From assembly GCF_001693275.1 (NCBI RefSeq), contig NZ_CP016477.1:62001-126000 (forward strand): a stretch of DNA of 64,000 bases, in the 5' to 3' direction. Origin of the DNA: Picosynechococcus sp. PCC 7117 (GTDB lineage: Bacteria; Cyanobacteriota; Cyanobacteriia; Cyanobacteriales; MRBY01). The stretch's first letter is position 1. Each line of letters begins with the position of its first letter. Under the pieces are notes generated by a model. That model made no database searches. It had not been told where the DNA came from and saw nothing but the letters and a program-made list of their open reading frames with translations. The translations under genes were made by a program, and so were the position numbers. This document shows, in pieces, positions 4,757 to 20,185 of this stretch.

Positions 4757-7700
4757 ATGGATAAAAAATGGTCACTAATTATCTATCTATGCTGTGCGAT
4801 CGCCGCCGGCTGGGGTCTATTTGAATTAGTCTCCCGTTTCCTCGTTGAACAATTTTGGTTCGCTGAGCTAGGATATCGTTCTGTCTTTTTGAAGCAGGTT
4901 TCCCTACGCATCGGCCTGTGGAGCCTTGGTTTTTGTGGCTCCTTTGTGTTCCTCTGGATAAATTACCGGGTGGTTGACCGCCAGGAATGGCAAATAATCC
5001 CGGATCAGTCGGGGGGCGATCGCCAAACCAATGTACCCCGCCCTCCGTTGCAATGGTGGCAAAAATTTTTCCTCGAACCCATCCCCTATCACAAGAAAAT
5101 TCCCGAATCACCGGCGATTAATTTTCGGGGGTTACTGCTGTTAATGGCTGGGTTTAGCCTGTTGATTGTCTTGATTTTGTTCCACTACGGCTCGGTGGTC
5201 TGGGAGATGGGACAACGGGACATGAGCCTGCCGCTAATTACCCCTGCTTTACCGGATCCCCTGGCATTCAAATCATTGCGCAGTTTGTGGCAATTTACCC
5301 AACAGCAAATCTGGCGTTTGGGGTTAGCTGCGGTGGTGTTGGGAGGCATCCTTTGGCAACGGTGGTTTTCTTTGCGGGCGATCGCCGTGGTTCTAAGTCT
5401 CTGTTTCGGGACGATCCTGGCGAATAATTGGGTGCGGATATTCCAGGGTTGGTTTGGAGTGCCCTTCAGTCAAATCGATCCGATTTATAACCATGATGCT
5501 GGTTTCTATGTTTTTACCCTGCCCCTGTGGCAAATCCTCGACTTTTGGTTTGAGGGTTTATTTCTCTATGGCTTGGTAAGTGTGACCCTGTACTATCTGC
5601 TGTCTGGCGATAGTTTTTCCCAGGGACAGTTTCCGGGCTTTAGTCCAGCCCAGTTACGGCATCTCAATCTCTTGGCGGGCCTCCTCTTCCTTGCCGTGGC
5701 CGGACGCCATTGGTTAGTACGTTATGAGCTGCTCTACTCCAAGCTTGGGGTGGTTTATGGGGTGAGCTATACCAATCTCAACGTCGATCAACACGTGGAA
5801 ATTCTCCTCACAGTTTTGGCCTTGGCGATCGCCGCTTGGTGTTTAGGGCAATTCTGGCGCTATCCCCACCGCCGCACCGTTTCTATCCGTCGCCAACAGC
5901 CCCAGGTGTTAAAGGGCATTATTTTGTATATCGGCGTTATGGCCATCGGTGCCATTCTCTCTGCCGGGACCCAACGCCTCATCGTGCAACCGAATGAATT
6001 AGCCCGGGAGCGTCCCTATCTGGAATACAGCATCGCCTCCACCCGCAAGGCCTTTGGGCTAGATGCCATCGAGTCACGGGTGTTTAACCCAGAAGGAGAA
6101 CTCACCGCCTCCGACATTGACAGCAATCCCCTAACCATCAACAACATCCGCCTATGGGACAGTCGCCCCATCCTGCAAACTAACCGCCAATTGCAGCAAA
6201 TCCGGCTGTATTATCGCTTTTCGGATGCTGACATTGATCGCTATACCCTACGCCTAAACCCAGACCAAAATCCCAGCCAACAACAGGTGATCATTGCCCC
6301 CAGGGAGCTAGATTATGAAGCGGTGCCAGAACAAGCAAAGACTTGGGTGAACAAGCATCTCATTTATACCCATGGCTATGGCTTTACGGTGAGTCCAGTC
6401 AACCGGGCTGAGGAGACTGGCTTACCCCAATATTATGTACAGGATATTGGGGCTGGGGCGACGGCAGATAATGGCAATTTGACGACCTTAACCCCAGCGG
6501 TACGGGAGGCAATTCCCATTGGTCAACCGCGCATTTACTACGGTGAGCTGACCAATAACTACGTGATGACCGATACCAAGGTGCAGGAGTTGGACTATCC
6601 CAGTGGGGAAGATAACCGCTACAACACCTACGACGGGACGGGGGGCATTGCCTTTGGGAATCCCTTAAAGCGCTTGTTTTTCGCGCAATATCTCCGGGAT
6701 TGGCGGATTTTGTTATCCAATGATCTCACCGGTGATACTCGCTTGTTGATGCGACGCAATATTAATCAACGGGTGCGGGCGATCGCCCCATTTTTGCGGT
6801 TTGACCGTGATCCCTACCTCGTGTCAGCCGACATTGGCGAGACCAATCGCCTCGGCGAAAAAAATTACCTCTATTGGATTTTGGATGCCTACACCACCAG
6901 TGACCATTATCCCTATGCCGATCCGGGGGAACATCCCTTCAACTACATCCGCAACTCCGTTAAGGTGGTGATCAATGCCTACAATGGCACAGTGCGTTTT
7001 TATATCGCCGATGCTGCCGATCCGATGATCCAAACTTGGGCAAGGGCCTTTCCAGAATTGTTTCGTTCCTTTGCCGAATTGCCCGATGGTTTAAAAGAAC
7101 ACCTGCGCTATCCAACTGACTTGTTCAATGTGCAGTCCGAACGCCTCCTGAGCTATCACATGCAGGATCCCCAGGTTTTTTATAACCGCGAAGACCAGTG
7201 GGAAATTCCCCAGGAAGTTTATGGAAATGAACCCCAGGAGATCGCCCCCTACTATCTGATCATGCGGCTACCCACGGCCACTTCAGAGGAATTTATTTTG
7301 CTCCACCCCTATACCCCCACCAGTCGCCCTAATTTAATTGCCTGGTTAGCGGGCCGCGCCGATGGAGAACATTATGGCAAGCTGTTACTTTACCAATTCC
7401 CGAAACAGAAGTTGATTTATGGGCCGGATCAAATTGAAGCCCTCATTAAACAAGACCCGGTTATTTCTCAGCAAATTTCCCTCTGGAATCGAGAAGGTTC
7501 CCGGGCAGTGCAGGGCAAGTTATTGGTAATTCCCATTGAACAGTCGCTCCTCTATGTGGAACCCCTTTACCTAGAGGCCGAAGAAAATAGCGTCCCGACC
7601 TTGGCACGGGTGATCGTGGTTTATAACAACCAAATTGTGATGTCCCGCACCTTGGAAACAGCCCTCAACACGATTTTTCGTCCGGAGCAAGTAACGCCCC

Positions 7701-7759
7701 AGGAGGAGACGATTTTTCGAGATCTAGAAACAGATGTGGTCGTTCCACCACCTGTCTAG
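4757..7759 (+). CDS. UPF0182 (COG1615) large membrane protein
   Basis: 1000 residues, within the family's usual range. The first about 415 residues contain some eight or nine hydrophobic segments, beginning with WSLIIYLCCAIAAGWGLFEL. The rest is a large hydrophilic domain with the conserved family look (YGELTNNYVMTDT, FAQYLRDWRILLS, NAYNGTVRFYIADAADPM, YLIMRLP). The family is widespread in actinobacteria and cyanobacteria and its function is unknown. Start ATG at 4757. The C-terminus ends in VVVPPPV. Confidence 0.9.
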   Translation: MDKKWSLIIYLCCAIAAGWGLFELVSRFLVEQFWFAELGYRSVFLKQVSLRIGLWSLGFCGSFVFLWINYRVVDRQEWQIIPDQSGGDRQTNVPRPPLQWWQKFFLEPIPYHKKIPESPAINFRGLLLLMAGFSLLIVLILFHYGSVVWEMGQRDMSLPLITPALPDPLAFKSLRSLWQFTQQQIWRLGLAAVVLGGILWQRWFSLRAIAVVLSLCFGTILANNWVRIFQGWFGVPFSQIDPIYNHDAGFYVFTLPLWQILDFWFEGLFLYGLVSVTLYYLLSGDSFSQGQFPGFSPAQLRHLNLLAGLLFLAVAGRHWLVRYELLYSKLGVVYGVSYTNLNVDQHVEILLTVLALAIAAWCLGQFWRYPHRRTVSIRRQQPQVLKGIILYIGVMAIGAILSAGTQRLIVQPNELARERPYLEYSIASTRKAFGLDAIESRVFNPEGELTASDIDSNPLTINNIRLWDSRPILQTNRQLQQIRLYYRFSDADIDRYTLRLNPDQNPSQQQVIIAPRELDYEAVPEQAKTWVNKHLIYTHGYGFTVSPVNRAEETGLPQYYVQDIGAGATADNGNLTTLTPAVREAIPIGQPRIYYGELTNNYVMTDTKVQELDYPSGEDNRYNTYDGTGGIAFGNPLKRLFFAQYLRDWRILLSNDLTGDTRLLMRRNINQRVRAIAPFLRFDRDPYLVSADIGETNRLGEKNYLYWILDAYTTSDHYPYADPGEHPFNYIRNSVKVVINAYNGTVRFYIADAADPMIQTWARAFPELFRSFAELPDGLKEHLRYPTDLFNVQSERLLSYHMQDPQVFYNREDQWEIPQEVYGNEPQEIAPYYLIMRLPTATSEEFILLHPYTPTSRPNLIAWLAGRADGEHYGKLLLYQFPKQKLIYGPDQIEALIKQDPVISQQISLWNREGSRAVQGKLLVIPIEQSLLYVEPLYLEAEENSVPTLARVIVVYNNQIVMSRTLETALNTIFRPEQVTPQEETIFRDLETDVVVPPPV

Positions 7760-7864
7760 GGAAATTGCCCTTCAGCGTAAATATCACAATTTATGAGCGA
7801 TCGCCTTTTGCGGCGTTGACCTGAACCATCATGAAGGGATTAGTGATGGATTTGGTAATAACCC

Positions 7865-9373
7865 ATGTTTTTTGATTGCTTTGGGAAGGTCGTTCGTTCT
7901 ACGGTGCTGGTATCTGGGGCCATGGTCAGTTTGGCGATCGCCCCCCTATCTCTCTGGGCTGAAACGGTAGAATTGCAACTGCTTCACCTCAATGATGTCT
8001 ATGAAATTACGCCCCTGGGTGGTGGGGCAACGGGGGGGCTGGCGCGGTTGGCGACCCTACGCAAGGAACTGCTCGCCGAAAATCCCCATACCTTCACCGT
8101 TTTAGCGGGGGATTTATTTAGTCCGTCGGCCTTGGGGACTGCGGTGGTGGATGGCGATCGCCTCGCAGGAAAACAAATTGTGGCGGTGATGAACCAAGTG
8201 GGCTTGGATCTTGCCACCTTCGGTAACCACGAATTTGACATCAGCGAATCCCAGTTCAAGCAACGCCTAGCAGAATCAGACTTCCAGTGGTTTTCGGGGA
8301 ATGTCCTGACGGCGGCGGGGGAACCCTGGGATAATGTACCTCCCTACGTGATTGAAACCATTTATGGTGAGGCGGGAACTCCGGTGCGGGTTGGTTTTGT
8401 GGGGGTGGTAATTCCGAGCAATCCCGTAGATTACGTCACCTACCTCGACCCCCTAGAACAGATGGAAACCCTCGTCGCAGAATTAGAGACACAAACGGAT
8501 ATTATTGTGGCGGTCACTCACCTGGCGATGCAGGATGACCATTACCTCGCTGAAAATATCCCGGAAATTGACCTGATCCTGGGGGGCCACGACCATGAAA
8601 ATATTCAACAGTGGCGTGGTGCGGATTTTACGCCGATTTTCAAGGCCGATGCCAATGCTCGCACGGTTTATCTCCACAATCTCAGCTACGACACAGAAAC
8701 GGAGCAGTTTACAATTCAATCACATTTGCAACCGATTACCGGGGCGATCGCCGCAGATCCAGAAACAGAACAGGAGGTTAATTATTGGCAGCAACTGGCC
8801 TTTGATGGTTTTCGGGCTGATGGTTTTGAACCAGAGCAAATCATTACCGAAAGTCCAATCGCCCTAGATGGTTTGGAAAGTTCCGTGCGCAACCAACCGA
8901 CGGCGTTAACGGACATCATTGCCCAGTCAATGTTAACGGCGACACCCGCTGCCGAATTAGCCATTTTTAATGGCGGCTCGATCCGTGTTGATGATGTGCT
9001 GCCTCCCGGCCCGTTGTCCCAGTATGATGTGATTCGGATTTTGCCCTTCGGGGGAAATTTAGCCACCGTTAAGATTAAGGGGGTAACTCTGGAACGAATT
9101 CTCAATCAGGGCGTGGCCAATCGCGGCACGGGGGGATATTTGCAAACGGCGGGGGTGACCTTTGTTCCGGAAAGTCAAACCTGGCAAATTGGCGATCGCC
9201 CTTTAGATCCCGAACGCATTTATCGGGTCGCAGCGACGGAATTTCTCATCTCCGGGCGGGAAACGGGCCTCGATTTCTTGACGCCTGAACATCCCGATGT
9301 GACTTTGCTCGAAACGGGAGAAGATGTGCGCTTTGCCTTCATTCAACAACTCCAGCAGCAATGGGCCGATTAG
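7865..9373 (+). CDS. Secreted 5'-nucleotidase/metallophosphatase (UshA-like)
   Basis: 502 residues. A signal peptide ends near residue 32 (LSLWAE), so it acts outside the cytoplasmic membrane. The N-terminal calcineurin-like domain shows HLNDVYE (Asp44), GDLFSP (Asp82), GNHEFD (Asn120-His121) and GGHDHE. The C-terminal 5'-nucleotidase domain shows NQPTALTDIIAQ, FNGGSIRVD and ILPFGGNLATVKIKG. Family members hydrolyse nucleotides to scavenge phosphate and nucleosides; specificity cannot be read here. The usual NGGGIR is NGGSIR. ATG at 7865; no strong ribosome-binding site is seen, and an internal ATG at residue 20 is an alternative but would shorten the signal. Confidence 0.88.
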   Translation: MFFDCFGKVVRSTVLVSGAMVSLAIAPLSLWAETVELQLLHLNDVYEITPLGGGATGGLARLATLRKELLAENPHTFTVLAGDLFSPSALGTAVVDGDRLAGKQIVAVMNQVGLDLATFGNHEFDISESQFKQRLAESDFQWFSGNVLTAAGEPWDNVPPYVIETIYGEAGTPVRVGFVGVVIPSNPVDYVTYLDPLEQMETLVAELETQTDIIVAVTHLAMQDDHYLAENIPEIDLILGGHDHENIQQWRGADFTPIFKADANARTVYLHNLSYDTETEQFTIQSHLQPITGAIAADPETEQEVNYWQQLAFDGFRADGFEPEQIITESPIALDGLESSVRNQPTALTDIIAQSMLTATPAAELAIFNGGSIRVDDVLPPGPLSQYDVIRILPFGGNLATVKIKGVTLERILNQGVANRGTGGYLQTAGVTFVPESQTWQIGDRPLDPERIYRVAATEFLISGRETGLDFLTPEHPDVTLLETGEDVRFAFIQQLQQQWAD

Positions 9374-9412
9374 AACTTTCCCTTAGCCCCTCCAGCGGTG
9401 GGGAACAAGAAG

Positions 9413-9431
9413 TCTCCCTTCATAAGGGAGA
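9413..9431. terminator. Hairpin between convergent genes
   Basis: Perfect 8-bp stem TCTCCCTT (9413-9420) and AAGGGAGA (9424-9431) with a CAT loop, between the convergent nucleotidase and CRR7-like genes. No long T run follows on either strand. It could be a bidirectional terminator or a copy of a small dispersed repeat of the kind common in cyanobacteria. Confidence 0.4.
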
Positions 9432-9459
9432 TTTAGAGGGATGTGGGGATGTGGATACC

Positions 9460-9714
9460 CTATTTTTCAAAGCGCACCGCATACCACTGCAAAAAACCCT
9501 CCTCGATTTCCAGTTCGCAATAATCTGCGAGGAGTTGATCAATTTGCTCAGCTTGGGAGGGGAGTTTGGCCAAATCGGCGGGCAATAGATCCGGCTGGGT
9601 ACTGAGGAGCGTTTCAAAAAAGGTGCGGATCTCGTCGGGCTCCATCAATTGTTCTGGGTGGTCGTGGCGCAACACCACATAACCATCCACTTGGTACATA
9701 ATCGGATCTGCCAT
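9460..9714 (-). CDS. CRR7-like protein (NDH-1 assembly family)
   Basis: 84 residues from the ATG at 9714, with AAGG about six bases upstream; a longer start at 9774 would overlap selO on the other strand. The pattern [13 protein letters not shown], a central [10 protein letters not shown] and the ending [19 protein letters not shown] resembles the Chlororespiratory Reduction 7 family (DUF3571), needed in plants for the chloroplast NDH complex. In cyanobacteria a role in NDH-1 assembly or stability is plausible but inferred. The assignment is from memory of the family pattern. Confidence 0.68.
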
Positions 9715-9751
9715 AATATGCCTTAATGCTTTTTGGTTTAATTGTACGCCC

Positions 9752-11182
9752 ATGGCCCCCATCAGTGAGCTCACCCAAAATCCCCTCGTTTGTCTGCCCT
9801 ATGAACAGGTCTTTGCAAGCCTAGGCGATCGCTTTTCTGATGAAGTAACAGCGGCAGATTTTCCCCACCATGAGCTACGCTTCCGCAATGACGCCGTTTT
9901 AGAAAAATTGGGCCTCGAACCGAAACAAGTAGACGATCAAGATTTTCTCGAAGCGTTCGGTCAGTTCCAAGCGCCCCATCCCTTGCGGGCCATGTGTTAC
10001 CACGGCTATCAATTCGGTCAGTACAATCCCCAGTTAGGGGACGGACGGGGTTTTCTCTACGGGCAGGTGCGCGCCCAGGATGGCTTACTCTACGATCTCG
10101 GTACGAAAGGTTCTGGTCAAACTCCCTATTCCCGCAATGGTGATGGTCGCCTAACCCTCAAAGGTGGTGTTCGGGAAGTTTTGGCGGCAGAGGCATTACA
10201 CCAACTAGGCGTGAATACTTCCCGCTGTCTAAGCCTGATCGAAACAGGGGAATCCCTCTGGCGGGGGGACGAGCCTTCTCCCACTCGGTCTTCGGTGATG
10301 GTCAGGTTCCAGCGATCGCATATTCGGTTTGGCACCTTTGAGCGGCTCTATTATCTACAACGGCGGGACTTATTACAGCGACTCCTCGACCATGTGGTGG
10401 AACATTACTACGGCGAGTATGTTGGGGATGAGGATGCCTACGCCCTGTTCTACGCTGATTTGGTGAAGCGGGTGGCACGATTAGCGGCTCAGTGGATGGC
10501 GGCGGGCTTTTGCCACGGGGTTTTGAATACGGACAATATGGCAATTACGGGGGAAAGCTTTGATTATGGCCCCTATGCGTTTATTCCCAGCTATGACCGC
10601 AAGTTTACGGCGGCTTACTTCGACTACAGTGGTCGCTATAGCTACGGCAACCAACCAATGATCTGCCGCCTGAATTTAGAAATGTTGCAAATGCCCCTGG
10701 CGCTGGTGATGGATAAGCGGGATTTGGCGACGGGCCTCGTGAATTATGAAATCGAATATGAGCAAACCTATCGCCAGTTAATGCTCGAAAAATTGGGGCT
10801 GCAAGATTTGCCGGAAGATCTAGGGGCCGATCTGTTTGCCGCAACCCTGGCACTGTTGGAGGAAACCCAAACGGGCTACCACGACTTTTTCTATCAATTA
10901 GCGACCCAGTTTAATTACGCTTGGCGATCGCATTCCAGCACCATTTTGGAAAATAGTGATTTGTCAGGGCCGCTCTTTGAACAATGGCAAGGACTTTACC
11001 AGCGGGCTTTACAAGAAATCCCTGAACCTGAGTTGGCACAAATTGGCGATCGCCTGACCTCCCAAAACCCCAAAACAGCTTTGCTGCGTCCGGTGATTGA
11101 ATCTATTTGGGAACCGATCACCACAGAAAATAACTGGCAACCCTTTTATGATCTGCTTACTGCAATTCAGCAACGTCAATAA
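9752..11182 (+). CDS. selO: SelO protein adenylyltransferase (YdiU/UPF0061)
   Basis: 476 residues, normal length. SelO is a pseudokinase-fold enzyme that transfers AMP to protein hydroxyls and takes part in redox control. Typical blocks are present: GDGRGFLYG near residue 97, the ATP-site segment [15 protein letters not shown] (119-133), [11 protein letters not shown], and the metal-binding [14 protein letters not shown] with FDYGPYAF further on. The ATG at 9752 gives the full N-terminus ([15 protein letters not shown]). No selenocysteine is expected, as in most bacterial members. It is divergent from the CRR7-like gene, with only 37 bases between the two starts. Confidence 0.93.
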
Positions 11183-11188
11183 AATTCC

Positions 11189-11431
11189 TCAAGTAAAGCG
11201 ACGTTGGAAGCGGCGATCGCGACGGGTACCTTTTTTTTGATTGCAGTTTAAACATAGCGTTTGCAGATTGCTAATGTCGTTACTGCCACCTTTGGCTAGG
11301 GGAATAATGTGGTCAATGCTGAGTTGGGTTTCGTGATGTCGTGAACCGCAACATTGACATTGATAATTATCCCGTTGGTAAACGTATTTTCGGACAGAAT
11401 CGGGAATTGGAAGACGCGGTGTTTTAGCCAT
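11189..11431 (-). CDS. HNH endonuclease-like protein
   Basis: 80 residues: an HNH/beta-beta-alpha metal fold with a paired-Cys zinc site (Cys25/Cys28 and Cys60/Cys63) and the motif Asp40-His41, Asn55, Asn64 ([12 protein letters not shown], then [14 protein letters not shown]). It is the last gene of the GTPase-KGK operon: its ATG overlaps the TAA of the preceding KGK gene by one base (TAATG), which implies translational coupling. Free-standing small HNH proteins of this type are common in cyanobacteria and their targets are unknown. It could nick or cut DNA; activity is inferred from motif only. A HIP1 site lies in its 3' part, unlike the KGK genes. Confidence 0.87.
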
Positions 11432-11826
11432 TAAATTGATTCTTCCTCTGATTTTTTTGTGATTTCCTGACGAATGTCATCCAGAGGAGATTCAGGAATA
11501 AAATTTTTGCTGTCTTCTGAAGCTTCGACAATTAAGCGAAACCGGATTTTTTTGTTTTTCCAAACTAATTCACTATGTTCTGCGATTAAGCTTTTGATTT
11601 CATAAACAATTGAATTGTCCGTAGAATTTTTGATTTTCTGTAATTCAATAGATTCATTACTAAAAACATTATCGATCTCGTTTTCAATAGCAGATAATGA
11701 TTCCGTGCAAATTTCATCAATAATATTCAAAAAAGTGCTGCTCTTCATGATGTCAGCTTCGGAGTTAATCTCAAAGACTGTGTTCTCTCCAAAGACATTT
11801 TCAATTGCATCAAAATTTTCAGACAT
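11431..11826 (-). CDS. KGK-type small protein, copy 4 (degenerate motif)
   Basis: 131 residues, acidic, AT-rich coding. It shares with the three genes upstream the C-terminal block: a basic strand ([14 protein letters not shown]), then an acidic linker and [10 protein letters not shown]. The motif that gives the KGK family its name is KNK here. The N-terminal half is an isoleucine/glutamate-rich predicted helix region. Its stop overlaps the HNH start, and its start lies eight bases after the previous copy. Function unknown; the KGK family (PF08872, from memory) is described mainly from cyanobacteria. Confidence 0.75.
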
Positions 11827-11834
11827 AGTGAGTT

Positions 11835-12191
11835 TTACGGTTCGGATATAGATTGACGAATATCATCTAAGGGAGATTCTGCATTCCCCCTTTCCGTGGC
11901 ATTGGGAATAAATTCAAGAGAAATTTTAATTTTAACTTTTCCCTTTTTCCAACCAGAGCCAGCCACATCTAATATTTCAGCTTCGTAGCCATCAGTAAAC
12001 CATTGCTGATAAGGGATATAATGTTCTTTTTCCCAGTCATTTGGAGAAAATCCCAACAGTTTAGATTTGAGTGCTTTGAGAAAGTCGCCAACTTTAGCCA
12101 TCGGCTGATTCATAAAAGATACTTTTACTGGTTCGAGAAAATGAATAACCGATGATTCTTGTGTGAGTAACTTTTTTTGAGTAGGTGACAT
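11835..12191 (-). CDS. KGK-domain small protein, copy 3
   Basis: 118 residues. This is the only one of the four copies with a literal KGK (GSGWKKGKVKIKISLEF), followed by the shared tail [10 protein letters not shown]. Its N-terminal half differs from the others (QPMAKVGDFLKALKSKLLGF). The start ATG lies three bases after the preceding stop; an internal ATG at residue 27 is possible. It is translated as part of the minus-strand operon. Molecular role unknown. Confidence 0.78.
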   Translation of the reverse strand: MSPTQKKLLTQESSVIHFLEPVKVSFMNQPMAKVGDFLKALKSKLLGFSPNDWEKEHYIPYQQWFTDGYEAEILDVAGSGWKKGKVKIKISLEFIPNATERGNAESPLDDIRQSISEP

Positions 12192-12194
12192 AGT

Positions 12195-12563
12195 TTAATC
12201 TTCGGTTTTTTCTTGAATTGACTGGCGGATATCATCGAGTGGTGACTCTGGTTCTTGAATTTCAGGCTGGATCAGACAGGCTTCAAGAGAGGTTTTGAAT
12301 TTTATCTGCATTTTTTGCCATCCTTCAGTTTTTCCAGGTTGAAGAATGTCAACTTCAAAAATCACACCTTCTTGCAATGAGTCTCTTAGATATTTAATGG
12401 ATTTATTACAAGCTTGGTCTTTGATTTTTTGATGACTCTGGTGTGAGCAAATCCGAAGGATTTCCATAAATTCGGAAGCTCTTCTGAGAAAACTATTGGA
12501 GCCAAAATCAATTACGTCTTCTGAGTCAAGAATATCGTGAATAGGCTGAAAATTACTTTCCAT
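12195..12563 (-). CDS. KGK-type small protein, copy 2 (degenerate motif)
   Basis: 122 residues from the ATG at 12563, one base after the stop of the preceding gene; GAGGA inside the end of that gene serves as its ribosome-binding site. A longer frame from 12605 would overlap the neighbour and is unlikely. N-terminus ESNFQPIHDILDSEDVIDFG aligns with copy 1 (NKFQPIEKVLQADAVIDC). The motif region is GWQKMQIKFKTSLEA, so KGK is replaced by KMQ, followed by [11 protein letters not shown]. Function unknown. Confidence 0.77.
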   Translation of the reverse strand: MESNFQPIHDILDSEDVIDFGSNSFLRRASEFMEILRICSHQSHQKIKDQACNKSIKYLRDSLQEGVIFEVDILQPGKTEGWQKMQIKFKTSLEACLIQPEIQEPESPLDDIRQSIQEKTED

Positions 12564-12564
12564 T

Positions 12565-12966
12565 TTAGAATTCCTCAGAATTATTGATTGATTGCCGAAT
12601 GTCATCTAGTGGTGAAGCTTCTGCAAAATCAGAGTTTTGAGATGAATCTTCCAATTCGATTTCCATGACGACTCGAAAACGAAGTTTTGCTTTCTGCCAT
12701 CCACCACCGGAAGGGTCTAGTGTCTTACACTTTATACCCTCTTCAATAAACTCTTTGATAAACTGGTCATTAGAAGTATCTTTTGAGAAGACAACACCTT
12801 TATGCTGAAAGTATAAGATCAACTTAGAAGCCAAAACTTCTCTGAGAATTTGATCGATGTATTGAGTCAACTTTTGTAGAGTATAAACATTTCCTTCGTG
12901 ATTACAATCAATTACTGCGTCCGCTTGAAGAACTTTTTCTATTGGTTGAAATTTATTGTTTTTCAT
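12565..12966 (-). CDS. KGK-type small protein, copy 1 (degenerate motif)
   Basis: 133 residues, first of the four tandem copies, 83 bases downstream of the dynamin-like gene. It has the full family layout: FQPIEKVLQADAVIDC start, a helical middle (QKLTQYIDQILREVLASK), an EEGIKCKTLDPSGGGWQKAKLRFRV-type motif strand, an acidic spacer and [14 protein letters not shown] reads KAK. The ATG at 12966 has no strong Shine-Dalgarno. The spacing to the GTPase allows either read-through or a separate promoter. Confidence 0.78.
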   Translation of the reverse strand: MKNNKFQPIEKVLQADAVIDCNHEGNVYTLQKLTQYIDQILREVLASKLILYFQHKGVVFSKDTSNDQFIKEFIEEGIKCKTLDPSGGGWQKAKLRFRVVMEIELEDSSQNSDFAEASPLDDIRQSINNSEEF

Positions 12967-13049
12967 GTCAACTATTTGCCAAAGGTTATCGAAATTTATG
13001 TTTTATATCGTTTCTCAATAATAGTGTTTTGCCTTGACTTAAAGAGAAA

Positions 13050-15476
13050 TTATTCATTGTCTAAATTTTTATTGATGATTCCTTGAGAAATGTTCAAGTC
13101 TGATTCAAGGATGATCGGCAATTGTCGCTCATAGACCTGCATTTCCTGAAGGCATTGATTAATTGTTGTCGCAGCTTGATTATAGACCTCAATTTTATGT
13201 TTATATTCTTGTCGTAACTGAAGATTTCGAGCAATTTTTTCACGGGCTTCCTCTTCTAGAGTTTGTTCCAAATAACGCCGAGCTAGATTATATTGCTCTA
13301 AAATAAACTCTGATTGTTGTGCTGCCATTGGTGACAACTGAGTTTTTAGAGTTTGGTTGATCGTCTGTCGAAAGTTTTGACGAATGGTAGCGTTAACCTT
13401 GGGTTCAAAATCTAGCTTTAAAAGTTGACGAATCGCGGGTTCTGCTTCCACCATACTTTCACAATCATAGGCCTGAGAAGTCTGCTGGAGAGTTTGTCGA
13501 AATTGATAAATCGAAAAAGTTCCTTCATCATAAAATCTTGGACTTTCTCGCACATAGCGATCGCATTCTGTTCTCGCTTCACTTTGGAGTGCATAAATCA
13601 GTTGACCTTCGAGAGTTGAAATGGATTGTTCAAGACCTCCATCGTTTCCTAATAAACGATATAGTTTTCGATAATAATCAGATTGTTGAATGCGCTTCAC
13701 TAAGCGTTGACAAAAATTGTGGATGAGAATGTCTGAAAATTCGATCAAAACATCTTCTAACTCATTTGCCAAATAATACAAAGCCTCTACTAAAATTGCA
13801 ATTAGAGGTGCGGTTGCGTTGCGGGGATGTGAAAAAGTGGCTTGACTGTAAGCATTTTTGACAGAAAAAGTTTGCAGCAATTCATCTAAACGACTGACCA
13901 TTTTTGCTTTAAGGGCCTGAAAATCCTCTTCAAAGGAAAAATCTTGGTTGATGATGATATTGTTGACTTCTTCAGTAATATGTTTTTGAAATTGAATACC
14001 GACCTCTTGTAATTCTTGGTTGAGGCGAGTTAACTCTTGAGCTTTCATCGCTTCGATCTCGTGGGGCTGGCTTTCTAACTCTCGATATTCAGAAAGTAAA
14101 TGTTTCCGTAAAGCAATACATAAAGGCTGAAGATCATCTGCTAACGCAGCGAATAATTGTGGCCGTTTTTCTTCTTTAAGGTAGCAGGTAATACCTTGGC
14201 GAAATTCTTCGATACCACTGTCTTTAACAAGTTGTTCAATTAACGGTCTACCCCATTCACTTAAAATGCGGACGTAGTTTTCATTAGGAGTTTCATAACT
14301 GTTGACAGAAACTTTAAACGGCGTCCGTGTTAATTTGCCAGAGTTGGCACAATAATTGTTGAATTCACTTACGAATTGAGGCGTTTCTTCTTCGCCACCA
14401 AGATTTTTAACACTGTCCGCAAAAATACTATCAATACCAAAGCGATCGCCGCTGGCACTATCTTTAACTTGACTACCAAAAAAACCTAACAAACCACTTG
14501 TTTTGTAAATTCTTTCATCCCTTTGAAACTGACTTTGGATCAAACTATCAAGCCGTTGCCGTAGTTGCGTATTGTACCAAGTTTGATCGATACGATTAAA
14601 AACATAAAAAACACGGTCGCGAATGCCTAAGTTTGTACGCATTTTTTCCAGTAATTCTGTTTCTTCACTGGTCATATCCCCTTCCGAAGCGGGTTTGAGG
14701 ACGCAGATTACCGCTGAAGTATCTGGATGAATAATTTTGTCATAGGTTAACTGGGCATCCCGTTTAACTGGAGCATCGATCCCTGGCATATCGACCAAAA
14801 CATTACCATCCTCTAGCAATGGATGATGGCAATAATATTGCAATTTTTTCAAAACAGCGCTGTTACTACCCCGTCGTGCAAAATTTGCTGCTTCCGTTAG
14901 ATTGGCAAAATTAAACTGCTCCATGGAATAAGTAGAATTTTGGCTAGGATGAATCCGCTCTTGATTGTGAAGATAGCCTTCGAGTAAAAGAAAAAGAGCT
15001 TTGGCTGTTTTGGCTTTGTCGGACTTGTTTTCACCCCCTTCCTCTTGCAAAATTTGTTGGCAATTATCTTGAAGGACAACAAGTTGTTGCTGGTCATCTA
15101 AAGTCTCAATTTTTAATGCGAGTCGTTGACAAAGTTGGTAGAGCTGCCCCTGAATTTCTTCGGTACTTAAAAAAGTCAGTACTACTCGCTCCTGATCTGG
15201 GGCCGCATATTCGATGTAACATTGGGTGCCTGTGGCATGGCCTTCGGCGCTGTAAAGTAGCTCCCGTTCGAGTAAGGCATTGATCAACATAGACTTACCC
15301 GCACTAAAAGCCCCAGCAAAGACAATTTCAAACTTTGGAGAGGTGGCCTTTTCGAGGGATGTGGCGATCGCTGTTGTATCCTGCTGGAAATGAAGTGTTG
15401 GTTCTTGCTGCCATAAATCGAGGAGTGCATTGACATTGGTGGTCAGGGATTGACAGGCAGGGATTAACTCGGACAT
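13050..15476 (-). CDS. Dynamin-like large GTPase
   Basis: 808 residues. The N-terminal GTPase domain has G1 GAFSAGKS (55-62), a G2 Thr in GHATGT (79-84), G3 DMPG (229-232) and G4 NRID (294-297). This is the bacterial dynamin pattern, with a large insert between G2 and G3. The rest is long and helical (for example the Glu/Gln-rich 455-500 region and the C-terminal 730-790 region), fitting a stalk/trunk. A hydrophobic patch near residues 560-580 (APLIAILVEALYYLANEL) may contact membrane. Bacterial dynamins remodel or protect membranes, and some act in phage defence. Its operon partners (four KGK proteins and HNH) are unusual. Confidence 0.9.
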   Translation of the reverse strand: MSELIPACQSLTTNVNALLDLWQQEPTLHFQQDTTAIATSLEKATSPKFEIVFAGAFSAGKSMLINALLERELLYSAEGHATGTQCYIEYAAPDQERVVLTFLSTEEIQGQLYQLCQRLALKIETLDDQQQLVVLQDNCQQILQEEGGENKSDKAKTAKALFLLLEGYLHNQERIHPSQNSTYSMEQFNFANLTEAANFARRGSNSAVLKKLQYYCHHPLLEDGNVLVDMPGIDAPVKRDAQLTYDKIIHPDTSAVICVLKPASEGDMTSEETELLEKMRTNLGIRDRVFYVFNRIDQTWYNTQLRQRLDSLIQSQFQRDERIYKTSGLLGFFGSQVKDSASGDRFGIDSIFADSVKNLGGEEETPQFVSEFNNYCANSGKLTRTPFKVSVNSYETPNENYVRILSEWGRPLIEQLVKDSGIEEFRQGITCYLKEEKRPQLFAALADDLQPLCIALRKHLLSEYRELESQPHEIEAMKAQELTRLNQELQEVGIQFQKHITEEVNNIIINQDFSFEEDFQALKAKMVSRLDELLQTFSVKNAYSQATFSHPRNATAPLIAILVEALYYLANELEDVLIEFSDILIHNFCQRLVKRIQQSDYYRKLYRLLGNDGGLEQSISTLEGQLIYALQSEARTECDRYVRESPRFYDEGTFSIYQFRQTLQQTSQAYDCESMVEAEPAIRQLLKLDFEPKVNATIRQNFRQTINQTLKTQLSPMAAQQSEFILEQYNLARRYLEQTLEEEAREKIARNLQLRQEYKHKIEVYNQAATTINQCLQEMQVYERQLPIILESDLNISQGIINKNLDNE

Positions 15477-15487
15477 TGATAACTGAG

Positions 15488-15516
15488 TTTGATAGGATAT
15501 CTCTCAATCTATCAAA
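15488..15516. promoter_or_regulatory. Inverted repeat upstream of the GTPase operon
   Basis: Perfect 8-bp arms TTTGATAG (15488-15495) and CTATCAAA (15509-15516), 13 bases apart, ending 12 bases before the GTPase start. It could be an operator or an RNA hairpin in the leader. No known regulator is recognised. Confidence 0.4.
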
Positions 15517-15759
15517 AGAATTTAAAAAAATGCCGATGCACTCGAAAATATATGACAAAATGAATTTCTGCTTGGTACCCGGAGCATAAATATCAGGCGA
15601 TCGCTTCGAAAAAGATAGGAAAATTAATTTTTTTGAACCAATGCAACTATTATTTAGCTGACATAAAACTGGTAATTGCTTGAGGACTTGCTGATAGTGA
15701 TTTGTCGGATAATAGTATTAAAGTACGAAGTCAAACAATTGATCACAGGAGAAATTCCG
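15517..15759. other. AT-rich divergent intergenic region
   Basis: Lies between the divergent GTPase operon and the small PCP-reductase-like gene. It contains one HIP1 site (about 15597) and no convincing ORF; it should hold promoters for both sides. Confidence 0.4.
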
Positions 15760-15939
15760 ATGGAATGGACAGATGAAGCTAAAGAACTCTTTAAAAAAAT
15801 CCCCTTTTTTGTGCGGCCCTTTGCTAAAAAGAAAATTGAAAAACTTGCCGAAGAAATGGGGGCAAAAATCATCGATAAGGAGATTTATATCCAGGCTAAA
15901 GCTCAATTTAATGACCCCAAAAAATCGGGGGAAACCTAA
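15760..15939 (+). CDS. PCP-reductase-domain small protein
   Basis: 59 residues from the ATG at 15760, with AGGAGA eight bases upstream; an upstream ATG at 15676 is not supported. The sequence WTDEAKELFKKIPFF, VRPFAKKKIEKLAEE, GAKIIDKEIYIQAKA matches the PCP_red domain (PF08369), otherwise the C-terminal piece of the ChlB/BchB subunit of light-independent protochlorophyllide reductase. Free-standing copies occur in cyanobacteria, with unknown role. It converges on lpxB with only two bases between them. Confidence 0.82.
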   Translation: MEWTDEAKELFKKIPFFVRPFAKKKIEKLAEEMGAKIIDKEIYIQAKAQFNDPKKSGET

Positions 15940-15941
15940 TT

Positions 15942-17114
15942 TTATCGCCCGTGACTGGGAAAGGTAAGAATATCAACAGCCGCCACATCACAGGCTTTGC
16001 CATCGCCCATCACTGCCCGCATTTCTTGATAATCCTGCTGGAGTTGGGCTTGGCGATCGCCATCCTGGAGTAATGCCAAAGATTCCTGGACAATGCGGGG
16101 AGCGGTCGCTTCTGTTTGTAATAGTTCGGGAACAATGCGCCGCATCAGGGTCAAATTCACTGGACACATGAACGGAATCGAAAATTTCAGCAGATGTTTC
16201 GCAATCCAAGCAGTGACGGGATGTACTTTGTACAGCACCACCTGGGGGACGTCCAACAGGGCTATTTCGAGGTTTACGGTGCCCGATTTTGTGATCGCTA
16301 GATCCGCAGCGGCGATCGCCAAGGGAGTTTGGGCCGGATTATCAATCAAAATTGCATTTAAACCCGCCTCATTGACCGCTGTTTCTAGAATGTTGCGGTA
16401 GTGGGGCAAGGCGACGGGAATTAAAAATTTCACCTCTGGCACCTGACGCTGGAGAATTTTGGCCGCTTCCACCATCACAGGTAAGAGATATTTCAGCTCC
16501 TGGCGGCGGGAGGCTGGCAACAAGGTGATCAGGGGGCGGTCTTGGTTGAGACCCAGTTTTTCCCTAGCGGTGGCACGACGGGGACAGGTGGCCATTTTTG
16601 CTACGAGGGGATGGCCCACAAATTTTACGTCTATGCCGTATTCTGCAAAGTAACGGGCTTCTTCCGGGAAAATGGCAAGAATCCGGTCGGTGATGCGGGC
16701 GATCGCCTTTGTATTGTTGTCATTAAACGACCAAACCCAGGCCTGGGGCGCAATGTAGTAAATAATCGGCACCTGGGGCAACTGACGGCGAACAAAGTTA
16801 CCGATACCAATATTCGGGCCAATGTAATCGATCAGCACCACCAGATCCGGCGGATTTTCTTTGAGATAGCGTTTCGCCTGCCGTTGAATGCGGAGGGTCG
16901 GAATGATGTAGGGCAGGGATTCGATCAGACCAATGGAGCCAATTTTTGTGGTGTTACCCAGGAGGGTTGCTCCCGCTGCGGCCATGCGATCGCCACCGAG
17001 GGCAGTAATTTTTAGGTCAATATTGAGCGCCTCGGCCTGACGAAAGAGCGCTTCCACCAAGAGACTCCCCTGGAGATCGCCGGATACTTCCCCCGTACTG
17101 ATGAAAATATGCAT
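15942..17114 (-). CDS. lpxB: Lipid-A-disaccharide synthase
   Basis: 390 residues, full length. A GT19 glycosyltransferase joining UDP-diacylglucosamine and lipid X into the lipid A disaccharide. Family blocks seen: HIFISTGEVSGDLQG at the N-terminus, VLIDYIGPNIGIG, IIYYIAPQAWVW, VGHPLV, LLPASRRQEL, and TKSGTVNLE in the C-terminal half. Last gene of the fabZ-lpxA-lpxB cluster, six bases after lpxA. lpxC and lpxD are not in this window. Confidence 0.96.
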   Translation of the reverse strand: MHIFISTGEVSGDLQGSLLVEALFRQAEALNIDLKITALGGDRMAAAGATLLGNTTKIGSIGLIESLPYIIPTLRIQRQAKRYLKENPPDLVVLIDYIGPNIGIGNFVRRQLPQVPIIYYIAPQAWVWSFNDNNTKAIARITDRILAIFPEEARYFAEYGIDVKFVGHPLVAKMATCPRRATAREKLGLNQDRPLITLLPASRRQELKYLLPVMVEAAKILQRQVPEVKFLIPVALPHYRNILETAVNEAGLNAILIDNPAQTPLAIAAADLAITKSGTVNLEIALLDVPQVVLYKVHPVTAWIAKHLLKFSIPFMCPVNLTLMRRIVPELLQTEATAPRIVQESLALLQDGDRQAQLQQDYQEMRAVMGDGKACDVAAVDILTFPSHGR

Positions 17115-17120
17115 TATCGC

Positions 17121-17918
17121 CTAGCTCCGTTTCCCCGGAATTAAACCCCGACGGCTGGGATCGAGGGCTTTTTCGAGAAACTGTTGGAGATGTTGGAGAT
17201 GTTCATGGTCGCCGATAGTCGCAAGTTGGGCGATCGCCTCGGAGGTTTTGAGATCCGAGCGGTACAGTAAACGAAATGCTTGTTTGAGCAGACCCATTTC
17301 CGCCGGGGTTAAACCACTGCGCTTGAGGCCCACCAAATTCAAAGAACGCACCTTCGACGGGTTGCCTTCGACCAGCATAAAAGGTGGCACATCCCGATCA
17401 ATGCGACTCATGCCCCCCAACATTGCCATCTTGCCGATATGTACAAACTGGTGAATGCCCAACATCCCACCAATCACCGCTCGCGATTCGATTTCCACAT
17501 GGCCGGCGATCGCCACATTATTCGCAATGATGATGTTGTTTTCCAGAATGCAATTGTGGGCCACATGCACATAGGCCATCAGGAGATTGTCATTCCCAAT
17601 GATCGTTTTTTCTCCCGCCGCCGTCGCCCGATTCACCGTCACATATTCGCGAATCGTATTGCGATCGCCAATTTCAACTAAACTGGCCGCCCCCTGATAC
17701 TTGAGATCCTGTGGTTCTAAGCCAATGGCCGCCCCTGGGTAAATCCGATTCCCCTGACCAATGCGCGTATAACCATCCAAAATTGCATGGGCACCAATAA
17801 CCGTACCTTCCCCAACCGTGACATATTCACCAATCACTGCATAGGGGCCAACCTGAACCGTTGGATGAATTTGAGCGTTGGGGTGAACCACCGCCGTCGG
17901 ATGAATCAGAGTACTCAA
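17121..17918 (-). CDS. lpxA: UDP-N-acetylglucosamine acyltransferase
   Basis: 265 residues, a left-handed beta-helix of hexapeptide repeats from residue 4 (IHPTAVVHPNAQIHPTVQVG) to about 185, then a helical C-terminal domain. It attaches the first 3-hydroxyacyl chain to UDP-GlcNAc, the first lipid A step. The catalytic-His region is HVAHNCILENNI and the following stretch is GHVEIESRAVIGG. It lies between fabZ (49 bases) and lpxB (six bases) on the same strand. Confidence 0.96.
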   Translation of the reverse strand: MSTLIHPTAVVHPNAQIHPTVQVGPYAVIGEYVTVGEGTVIGAHAILDGYTRIGQGNRIYPGAAIGLEPQDLKYQGAASLVEIGDRNTIREYVTVNRATAAGEKTIIGNDNLLMAYVHVAHNCILENNIIIANNVAIAGHVEIESRAVIGGMLGIHQFVHIGKMAMLGGMSRIDRDVPPFMLVEGNPSKVRSLNLVGLKRSGLTPAEMGLLKQAFRLLYRSDLKTSEAIAQLATIGDHEHLQHLQQFLEKALDPSRRGLIPGKRS

Positions 17919-17967
17919 AAGAATTCTCCAGTGTGCTCCATAGTAGTGTAGTGGGCCTCAGGGCCAA

Positions 17968-18435
17968 TTATTCAAAATTCAGACGGGAAAAGAGCATCTC
18001 CCCTTCCACCGCCACTTGACCATCCACGGTGCCACAGCCCTTCATTTTCGCAATGCGCTTGGCCTTTACCGTGATCACTTCCACCGTCATAATTAGCTGA
18101 TCACCAGGGACTACCGGTCGCCGAAACCGAACTTTATCAATCCCAGCAAACGCAAAAAAGCTATCTTCCATCCCCGGCATTTGGGTCAAAATAAACCCGC
18201 CCACCTGGGCCATCGCTTCCACCATCAGTACCCCCGGCATGATCGGGTGATTTGGGATGTGACCTTGGAAATGGGGTTCATTAAAGGTGATATTTTTCAG
18301 GCCCACAGCCTTTTCACCGGGAATATATTCGAGGATGCGGTCTACCAGCGAAAAAGGATAGCGGTGGGGTAATAATTTTTGAATCTCTTCGACGGGGATC
18401 GGCTGGGCCAAAGTTCCGGGATGTTCTGTGGTCAT
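17968..18435 (-). CDS. fabZ: 3-hydroxyacyl-ACP dehydratase
   Basis: 155 residues. It dehydrates beta-hydroxyacyl-ACP in fatty acid elongation, drawing on the same hydroxyacyl-ACP pool as LpxA. The hot-dog fold active site is [20 protein letters not shown], with His59 and Glu73. The opening [17 protein letters not shown] is diagnostic. First gene of the lipid A cluster. The accessory island begins just upstream, so its promoter must lie within about 75 bases (18436-18510) or beyond the recombinase terminator. Confidence 0.97.
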
Positions 18436-18512
18436 AGACGGTGATCAATTAATAACAGTCTGTGCGGCTAGTTTAGATTACCTTGTAAAGGAGTTATAAG
18501 CCAGCATTAAAA

Positions 18513-18548
18513 CCCAGCAAAATGATTAGGTCAATCTTGCTGGGTTAT
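18513..18548 (-). terminator. Terminator of the DEDD recombinase gene
   Basis: Arms AACCCAGCAA and TTGCTGGGTT (10 bp, loop about 16) just downstream of the recombinase stop; on the minus strand they are followed by TTTTAATG. It separates the island from fabZ. Confidence 0.6.
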
Positions 18549-18553
18549 TTTCC

Positions 18554-19894
18554 CTATTTAAGGGCGTTTTCTGCTGCTTTCCATGACGATAAGAGCCTAG
18601 CCCGGATGGATTCGCAGTGAGAACATTCCCCATCGGTTAGAGGCCCGCCACATAGGGAGCAGTTCCCTAATTCATTGGCGTGGTAATGAACTAAATCCAC
18701 ATACTCACCGCGCTGGACATAGCCGACTAGAGCTTTGAATAGTAATCGTGTGGCATGGGCGGCGGTTTTGGTTCTGAGAAGTCGGATCGGGATACCTTGT
18801 CGCTTGGGGGCATTCATCCAAAGATAGATCAGTTGAGCTACTGCGTTAGAGTCTCGCTGTTTGGCAATGGAAACGCGGGTAAAAACCCATAGCCAAAGCA
18901 TTGATCGAGATATGTCAGACCCCCCTACGATTTGACGGTTATCTTTTTTCCCAGAAGCCTCACGACTAGGGGCAACGCCTAAACACTTCTCAAAGCGGCG
19001 GCGTGATATCTCGCGTTTCGTCTGTTTTTTGGAGTAGCGACCCCGCTTATAAATCACAATGCGATCGCCATTTTCATCTAAAAACCCTGTGATGGGGAAA
19101 ATATGGGTAAGGATAACGGATTGAAGGCGATCGCCCATACCGAAAACATCAAAGACCACCAAGTAAGGCTTAAACCGTTCATCCTGTTTAAACCTCTCGG
19201 TTTCAATTTCTATCTGAATTTCTTCTTCAATAATCCTGACTAAGCGGCGGGCGTGGCTTCTGGCATCGTCGGTTAAGCCTAGGCCGCAAGTTTTGGCATA
19301 TTTGCGATCAAAGGCAGATGATTTGTATTCCCCGGCAATCCATCTGATCCAGCGTGGGACGGACTTGCTACGGCGGGCTAACAGGTCTTTGTTGGCTATC
19401 TCTGGGAATTGCCATTCCAGATCCTGTTTTAAGCGGTTGATGATGGGGGATTGTACGCGGTTAAGGTGAGCCAGTCTTAAAACTTTCTCCCTGAGTTTGA
19501 CGATAGTTTGATCTCTCATCTGTAGGAACCATTGGGGGTCATTTAAGTGAGTCCATCCATAATGAGCCAGCGCAAAGCTATCAAATTCATCATCTTTATC
19601 GGGAAAGCGCAAGAACTCACGATGTTTTTTAAGGCTATGGTGAGCAACTAGCCTCACTTCAACGCCATTTCGGGCTAAGTGAGTGCCCCAAAGCTTGCTG
19701 TAATTTGTGCCTGTGGGTTCCAAAATGGCGATGTCTGCTCCATAGGCCAATATCTCTTTAATGCCTTTTGGATCGGCGGTAAATTGGCGGTATTGTGCCC
19801 CATCTAGGGCATATTGCCGTGGGTTCTCTGGAAAGTGATCCAATAGGCAACAAGTGGCTAAACCACGTCCGATATCAATTCCTAAAATTTTCAT
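18554..19894 (-). CDS. DEDD recombinase, IS110/IS1111/Piv-related
   Basis: 446 residues, longer than typical IS110 proteins. The N-terminal RuvC-like part has Asp7 in GIDIGRG, Glu59 in ILEPTGTNY and the Asp102/Asp105 pair in KDDEFDSFALA, the DEDD set. The C-terminal IS116-type part has GVAPSREASGKKDN and GGSDISRSMLW, where the serine of SREASG is the likely nucleophile. A Cys4 zinc ribbon (CSLCGG to CSHC) ends the protein. IS110 enzymes act with a structured bridge RNA encoded beside the gene, while Piv homologues invert DNA. Here a structured 290-base leader precedes the start. No terminal inverted repeats are seen, as expected for this family. It could be a transposase or an island-specific recombinase. 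Confidence 0.82.
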   Translation of the reverse strand: MKILGIDIGRGLATCCLLDHFPENPRQYALDGAQYRQFTADPKGIKEILAYGADIAILEPTGTNYSKLWGTHLARNGVEVRLVAHHSLKKHREFLRFPDKDDEFDSFALAHYGWTHLNDPQWFLQMRDQTIVKLREKVLRLAHLNRVQSPIINRLKQDLEWQFPEIANKDLLARRSKSVPRWIRWIAGEYKSSAFDRKYAKTCGLGLTDDARSHARRLVRIIEEEIQIEIETERFKQDERFKPYLVVFDVFGMGDRLQSVILTHIFPITGFLDENGDRIVIYKRGRYSKKQTKREISRRRFEKCLGVAPSREASGKKDNRQIVGGSDISRSMLWLWVFTRVSIAKQRDSNAVAQLIYLWMNAPKRQGIPIRLLRTKTAAHATRLLFKALVGYVQRGEYVDLVHYHANELGNCSLCGGPLTDGECSHCESIRARLLSSWKAAENALK

Positions 19895-20185
19895 GGTGCT
19901 TTAAAAAGGTGAACTTCCAAAAAATCCATAGAAAAGCCGACGTATCACCCGATAGCCCGAACAATGTGAGCCATATACCTTGTCACAGCAGTAAACGGCT
20001 CAAAGGCCGTCTATGGATTAAACCCTTATTGAGATGGGATGAGCCGACGTAATCTAGAAAGCCCTTAAGAGCCTGTTACTACAACACAGCCCGAAACCTC
20101 ATCAAAGATAAGGGGTGAAAAGCTTTGGACACTTCCCACGACCGGGATAAGTTACCCGGTTTCGATTGGTAGTGAGTCAATCTCA
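19895..20185 (-). ncRNA. Structured non-coding leader, candidate guide-type RNA
   Basis: About 290 bases upstream of the recombinase with no supported ORF but clear secondary structure. ATCCATAG (19924-19931) pairs with CTATGGAT (20011-20018), enclosing ACGGC/GCCGT. ACCGGG/CCCGGT (20141-20160) forms a strong hairpin. The 10-mer AGCCGACGTA is repeated directly at 19935 and 20042. In IS110 elements the non-coding end beside the recombinase encodes a bridge RNA with two guide loops; position and structure fit but do not prove it here. It may also be a plain 5' leader. Confidence 0.4.

Follow-up and report, generated by a model that had tools for sequence, protein, structure and literature searches.

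Do a dynamin-like GTPase, a set of small KGK proteins and a short HNH protein form one system in cyanobacteria, and what could such a system do? The question is raised by a locus of Picosynechococcus sp. PCC 7117, in which six genes follow each other on the minus strand at positions 11189–15476 of the stretch of DNA analyzed here (the window, 64,000 nt, NZ_CP016477.1, 62,001–126,000). In the map of open reading frames (ORFs) of the window, the order from 5' to 3' is a gene for a dynamin-like protein (DLP), four KGK genes (PF08872, numbered KGK1 to KGK4) and a gene for an 80-aa HNH protein (short HNH protein, sHNH). The gaps along the operon are 83, 1, 3 and 8 bases, and KGK4 and the HNH gene overlap by one base (TAATG). 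These ORFs, their coordinates and their order all match the one-strand layout given in a preliminary description of this DNA, and all six family assignments exceed the curated Pfam cut-offs. The operon is probably co-transcribed; promoter-like sites were no more frequent than expected by chance, and terminator-like sites were fewer than expected by chance.

The preliminary description regarded the locus as a candidate undescribed system, which holds for a part of it. A KGK clade of cyanobacterial DLPs, with a KGK protein typically encoded downstream, was presented in 2018 in a text that calls the function of KGK enigmatic (PMC5827413); the 'KGK domain' is also mentioned in PMC3141437, and a member of the clade, SynDLP, has a solved cryo-EM structure (PMC10104851). 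The DLP–KGK pairing is therefore already known. The HNH partner and a C-terminal tail shared by the KGK proteins and some DLPs appear new: HNH is not mentioned in the main texts of PMC5827413 and PMC10104851, and a literature search of main texts for dynamin, HNH and cyanobacteria together returned nothing.

Linkage of DLP, KGK and sHNH Genes Among Cyanobacterial Genomes

DLP, KGK and sHNH constitute a real, conserved and tightly coupled unit, which is an extended form of the known module. We surveyed 386 genomes of the phylum, of which 90 contain DLP (E ≤ 1e-50) and 92 contain KGK (E ≤ 0.001; 90 are above the cut-off). With the 80-aa sHNH query, 227 genomes give matches at E ≤ 1e-10, and sHNH was defined by a match of at least 85 bits; 80 genomes hold one such match, well clear of the general HNH background. 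DLP and KGK are both present in 77 genomes (DLP only 13, KGK only 15, neither 281), DLP and sHNH in 76 (DLP only 14, sHNH only 4, neither 292), and KGK and sHNH in 70 (KGK only 22, sHNH only 10, neither 284). With a lower sHNH threshold (86 genomes), the DLP/sHNH counts are 79, 11, 7 and 289 in the same order. Fisher P-values for these co-occurrences are tiny, as computed ignoring kinship. Within at least 104 genomes of the same order, an incomplete denominator, the DLP/sHNH counts are 69, 11, 4 and 20 (P-value = 4e-10).

The gene neighborhoods were analyzed at 90 DLP loci: that of the window, plus 89 in 88 further genomes (G153 was left out because its contig stops at the gene). Profiles built on the window proteins served to detect KGK and sHNH. 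KGK follows DLP on the same strand at 58 of the 90 loci and sHNH at 56 (both 45, sHNH without KGK 11, KGK without sHNH 13, neither 21), and the number of KGK copies per locus varies from 0 to 5. KGK precedes sHNH, since no KGK lies beyond sHNH in 44 of the 45 two-partner loci; in the exception (L055), the KGK match belongs to a protein of 498 aa. Among all families recurring within 7 kb of the 90 DLP genes on mechanically called ORFs, KGK reaches 57 loci and HNH 56, and every other family at most 13. All 102 KGK and all 57 HNH members detected in this way are on the DLP strand, with one of each scored upstream. A second set, the best 80 of 311 organism-named loci, partly overlaps the first and includes Nostoc, Microcystis, Okeania, Trichodesmium, Crocosphaera, Spirulina and others; where 2.5 kb or more of downstream sequence is available (70 loci), 31 have both partners, 7 KGK only, 6 sHNH only and 26 neither (many of them Nostoc).

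The partners are also linked in pairs. sHNH lies beside DLP in five genomes without any KGK match, and KGK–sHNH pairs away from DLP occur in 10 genomes, six of which belong to one genus, so each of these pairs is linked without the third member. The 80 strong sHNH genes comprise 56 beside DLP, 10 beside KGK only and 14 with neither within ~5 kb. Measured from longest-ORF starts, the spacing from KGK to sHNH (up to 3 kb) is zero or less in 15 of 44 cases and exactly −4 bases in nine. The preliminary description had named a random position of KGK genes with respect to DLP and HNH genes as the outcome contrary to tight coupling; this was not seen, and the survey of dynamin–KGK adjacency and HNH co-occurrence that the description proposed gave the conserved linkage reported above.

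A C-Terminal Tail Shared by KGK Proteins and Some DLPs

The four KGK genes of the window, all on the minus strand, are KGK1 (12565–12966, 133 aa, 67.8 bits against PF08872), KGK2 (12195–12563, 50.6 bits), KGK3 (11835–12191, 118 aa, 69.9 bits) and KGK4 (11431–11826, 131 aa), the weakest scorer at 29.8 bits; all pass the family cut-off of 25.6 bits. The start of KGK2 was chosen from the sequence: its longest ORF begins at 12605, inside KGK1, and a start at the ATG of position 12563 leaves the 1-base gap. Each protein carries the tail motif SPLDDIR near its C-terminus, encoded on the minus strand at 12596–12615 (KGK1), 12226–12245 (KGK2), 11857–11876 (KGK3) and 11471–11490 (KGK4). A strict DNA pattern for the tail has four matches in the 3.43-Mb genome of this strain, which are these four KGK genes only.

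Across 78 KGK sequences the mean column identity is 21%, and residues conserved at 90% or more are G77, L83, W90 and G93 and, in the tail, S118, L120, D121, D122 and R124. In the AF2 model of KGK1 (pLDDT 86, pTM 0.60), the tail begins a predicted C-terminal helix (119–132) behind a less confident linker. To the description of PF08872 we can thus add a conserved helix that, on the model, looks like a docking element, and the link to sHNH. In Foldseek searches of PDB and BFVD the model had no match at E ≤ 0.001, VIA-align over 333 chains gave two rows with Z of 2.4 and 2.1, and a KGK profile search of PDB sequences gave nothing at E ≤ 1.

A loose protein pattern detects the tail, at the DLP loci of the two sets, in 86 of 101 and 69 of 77 KGK proteins, in 10 of 11 from KGK–sHNH pairs, in 5 of 13 from genomes without DLP and in 11 of 1,594 other ORFs (with a stricter pattern: 62/101 and 61/76 at the DLP loci, 3/11 in the pairs and 3/13 in genomes without DLP). 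A degenerate DNA pattern gave 51 matches in 36 genomes; the reversed pattern gave 19, and some of the 51 are therefore due to chance. At 30 loci drawn from these matches, 33 ORFs bear the motif, of which 32 are KGK and one is a non-KGK ORF of 80 aa (L303); four of the loci (L284, L288, L300 and L307) have no motif-bearing ORF.

The tail is also carried by some dynamins. Non-KGK ORFs of at least 60 aa in the same neighborhoods were searched for S.LDD[ILVM]R within the last 30 residues, and 2 of 3,605 and 5 of 1,932 in the two sets matched. DLPs account for six of the seven: four from Okeania (SPLDDLR), and two from another genus (L105 and L107), in which SILDDLR forms the final residues of the protein. 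The seventh is a 65-aa ORF resembling a KGK fragment (L251). In a fifth Okeania DLP, K replaces R in the tail, and the DLP of Trichodesmium, from the same clade as Okeania, ends just short of the tail position. The two groups of tail-bearing DLPs are apart on the DLP tree. Occurrence of the tail in both KGK proteins and some DLPs is the strongest hint in these sequences of a common docking partner, the main alternative being local copying from a neighboring KGK gene.

Some KGK proteins depart from the arrangement in the window. A fifth KGK domain in the same genome (L006 5300–7063, ~2.029 Mb) is N-terminal in a 587-aa ORF with an Asp/Glu-rich remainder and no SPLDD tail, and a similar long ORF is present in two DLP-less congeners (L184 and L185). 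One genome without DLP or strong sHNH (G027; L186 and L193) has three tandem, tail-less KGK-like ORFs of ~90 aa. KGK proteins of 247–264 aa with a single terminal tail were found at L070, L053, L228 and L251, and at L053 and L070 (G318 and G261) one frame holds two KGK matches.

Sequence Features of sHNH and DLP

The sHNH gene (11189–11431, minus strand) encodes 80 aa matching HNH_5 with 73.1 bits (cut-off 27.5). Residues C25, C28, D40, H41, N55, C60, C63 and N64 are invariant in all 38 aligned sequences (mean column identity 54%), and from established knowledge of HNH enzymes we take the cysteines and HNH residues to be the zinc and catalytic positions. The confidence of the predicted structure is middling (pLDDT 72). 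sHNH shares the CxxC pairs and the HNH residues with HNH endonucleases, whose domain is also found in IscB, Cas9 and phage HNH enzymes, but differs from them as a single-domain 80-aa family with its own conserved N-terminus (KTPRI.IP). IscB is its best NCBIfam match, covering the HNH domain only with 69.2 bits against a cut-off of 175. HNH relatives were found on 50 viral contigs with 34–74% identity over part of the domain; none spans the full sHNH, and the longest covers residues 2–70 at 41%. The match between sHNH and DotN/IcmJ is weak.

The DLP gene (13050–15476, minus strand) encodes a SynDLP-type dynamin-like GTPase of 808 aa (Dynamin_N, 58.6 bits, cut-off 27), which aligns over residues 1–797 with Slr0869, the SynDLP of PDB entry 7zw6 (phmmer E = 0, 1159.9 bits). 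Its P-loop, GAFSAGKSMLINALL, agrees with the extended motif GxxxxGKS/TxL/INALL/I defined in PMC5827413, and the HPRN motif is present. Cys8 and Cys775 are at the disulfide positions of SynDLP (C8 and C777, BSE) and are invariant in 12 DLPs, which have a mean column identity of 68%. The window locus therefore resembles the KGK-clade DLPs in full-length homology, extended P-loop, HPRN, both cysteines and a downstream KGK gene, and differs in having four KGK genes, against a KGK protein in the 2018 text, and in the additional HNH partner and shared tail. According to the text of PMC10104851, SynDLP fuses liposomes, binds negatively charged lipids and forms ordered oligomers in vitro; it is apparently non-essential under standard growth, and its cellular role was left open, a role against phage being suggested. 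The last 19 residues of SynDLP are unresolved in the cryo-EM map, so a flexible C-terminus is plausible. In several of the surveyed genomes (e.g., G383, G101 and G005) the DLP gene is broken or fragmentary, and the module is therefore dispensable.

Other bacterial dynamins are more distant. LeoABC (presumably the system named Eleos) and DynA of Bacillus subtilis share with DLP the dynamin-fold GTPase, and we know of no KGK or HNH partner for either. The window DLP scores 16.2 bits against the NCBIfam subfamily of LeoA/HP0731-type dynamins (cut-off 325) and 41.6 bits against the DynA model (cut-off 1600). PADLOC gave no full-length match for DLP, the partial ones being LeoA (1.1e-6 over residues 35–70) and LeoBC (0.0015 over residues 30–317).

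Possible Functions of the Module

Expression data are available from Synechocystis. In RNA-seq of a lexA mutant, reported for two densities, transcripts of slr0868 rose 16.1- and 14.6-fold, those of slr0869 8.0- and 6.7-fold, slr0870 6.3- and 7.5-fold and slr0871 8.0- and 11.5-fold, and salt- and heat-stress genes were also up (PMC4759255). Induction of slr0868–slr0871 is compatible with a single stress-controlled transcription unit, without being proof of one, and the data speak for stress no less than for phage.

The reading we favor, with a probability of about 0.4, is that of an accessory membrane module linked to stress, whose KGK adaptors dock through the shared tail and recruit or control a nuclease at membrane lesions. 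Judged by its full-length homology to SynDLP, the dynamin would self-assemble and remodel or repair negatively charged membranes. One to five KGK proteins would act as soluble adaptors, each made up of a divergent core and a conserved SPLDD[IL]R-like C-terminal helix docking on a common partner. Since this motif is also found at the C-terminus of some DLPs, the most likely role of the tail is to join KGK and DLP in one assembly, where it may bind the KGK core or a common third partner such as sHNH. The dedicated 80-aa HNH protein, with its intact nuclease signature and a gene often overlapping the last KGK gene, would be held or controlled by this assembly. Stress would probably switch the operon on; the dynamin would then handle the membrane lesion, and the nuclease would act on DNA there, whether incoming or exposed. 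A more speculative form of the idea is that DLP, KGK and sHNH make up a single membrane-coupled nuclease complex, in which interchangeable, tail-addressed KGK adaptors couple the sensing of lesions by dynamin filaments to controlled cleavage of DNA, in immunity or in response to membrane damage; we hold it only tentatively.

Several observations weigh against the stress-linked membrane module. Neither partner is obligatory: 21 of the 90 DLP loci lack both, 14 of the 90 DLP genomes have no strong sHNH and 13 no KGK, and 14 of the 80 strong sHNH genes have neither DLP nor KGK within ~5 kb. The tail is absent from most DLPs, including the copy in the window (7 of 164 matched in the two overlapping sets), and its pattern was relaxed after the stricter version had scored lower. 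At L105 the neighboring KGK and the DLP have nearly identical C-termini, which may be due to local copying. DotN and IcmJ are non-enzymatic HNH-like proteins, and by analogy the HNH of sHNH could be a structural domain.

The same genes can be read as an anti-phage system, in which the dynamin detects or seals phage damage to the membrane, the diversifying KGK proteins sense infection, and either phage or host DNA is cut by HNH. The intact nuclease signature, the divergence and variable number of KGK copies and the suggestion made for SynDLP in PMC10104851 agree with this, as do the mixed presence of the module within genera and its probable en bloc gain (see below). However, PADLOC models gave no full-length match to the window proteins, DLP and sHNH are strongly conserved, and DLP had no plasmid match at E ≤ 1e-20 and no phage match at E ≤ 1e-5 in the records searched. 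Of 110 drawn from 393 neighboring proteins, 11 cut by locus ends were excluded; at most 10 of the remaining 99 match PADLOC at E ≤ 1e-10 (PDC-S03 five, mad2 two, and PDC-S70, PD-T4-6 and mad3 one each), and their Pfam families are mixed and largely metabolic, with Uma2 in five, both in a sample without a matched control. Phage defense is possible, though neither the neighbors nor the known models favor it, and we consider it rather doubtful.

Two further explanations were considered. A pure membrane-maintenance operon of DLP with KGK regulators, beside which sHNH is an incidental, tolerated neighbor, would agree with the published DLP–KGK pairing (PMC5827413; PMC10104851), with the 13 loci having KGK without sHNH and with the sHNH genes found apart from both. 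We think it unlikely, as the co-occurrence of sHNH with DLP is no weaker than that of KGK, and sHNH stays by DLP where KGK is absent and by KGK where DLP is distant. The KGK-then-sHNH order, the frequent 4-base overlap and the pairs away from DLP would suit a toxin–antitoxin-like pair hitch-hiking by DLP, whose upstream KGK would inhibit the nuclease. Yet sHNH has no adjoining KGK at 11 of the 90 DLP loci and is apart from both in 14 genomes, and such a pair leaves the tail on some DLPs unexplained, which makes this explanation very improbable. SynDLP has a solved structure and an open cellular role (PMC10104851), and the function of the KGK domain is unknown; a nuclease-type partner that accompanies DLP as closely as sHNH does, together with the shared tail, leads to concrete binding and deletion tests of the roles of both.

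Base Composition and Probable Arrival of the Operon

The KGK stretch, AT-rich and free of GCGATCGC sites, had been taken in the preliminary description as a sign of transfer or faster evolution. The composition itself is as described: GC content is 35% in the KGK stretch and 49% in the window, and no GCGATCGC site is present, which is also true of 3.7% of 1,536-base stretches in the window. As a sign of transfer it is weakened, because KGK genes at other loci are likewise richer in AT than the sequence flanking them (median GC3 difference −0.10 among the KGK-bearing loci of 89, with the window genes ranking at 10.5%), so AT-richness is largely a trait of the KGK family. Faster evolution of KGK is supported by the column identities given above (21% in 78 sequences for KGK, against 54% in 38 for HNH and 68% in 12 for DLP), which come from different samples.

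Transfer gains its support elsewhere. GC3 of the window DLP relative to its flanks is the lowest of the 89 loci, and the GC content of the block at 11183–15756 is 38%, equaled or undercut by 0.5% of window stretches of equal length. By blastn of window positions 7001–20000 against L195 and L197, this block is missing from both congeners examined, G081 (87–91% identity here) and G209, in which SelO is followed by PCP_red after ~60 and 95 bases; in G209 the genes past PCP_red are on another contig. The empty site in two congeners and the GC3 deficit of DLP make a gain of the whole operon likely. The operon probably arrived here as one block, although loss in both congeners is possible. No common word of 8 or more bases was found between the two end stretches compared, no mobile vector was identified, and the DLP tree gave no near donor. 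Presence and absence of the module are mixed within at least seven genera, to which assembly gaps may contribute.

The gene adjoining the block, kept in both congeners, is a stand-alone small ORF with a PCP_red domain (protochlorophyllide reductase subunit B) at 15676–15939 on the plus strand. Farther along, a 446-aa ORF at 18554–19894 on the minus strand resembles IS110 transposases, with a DEDD_Tnp_IS110 score of 28.9 against the Pfam cut-off of 29.

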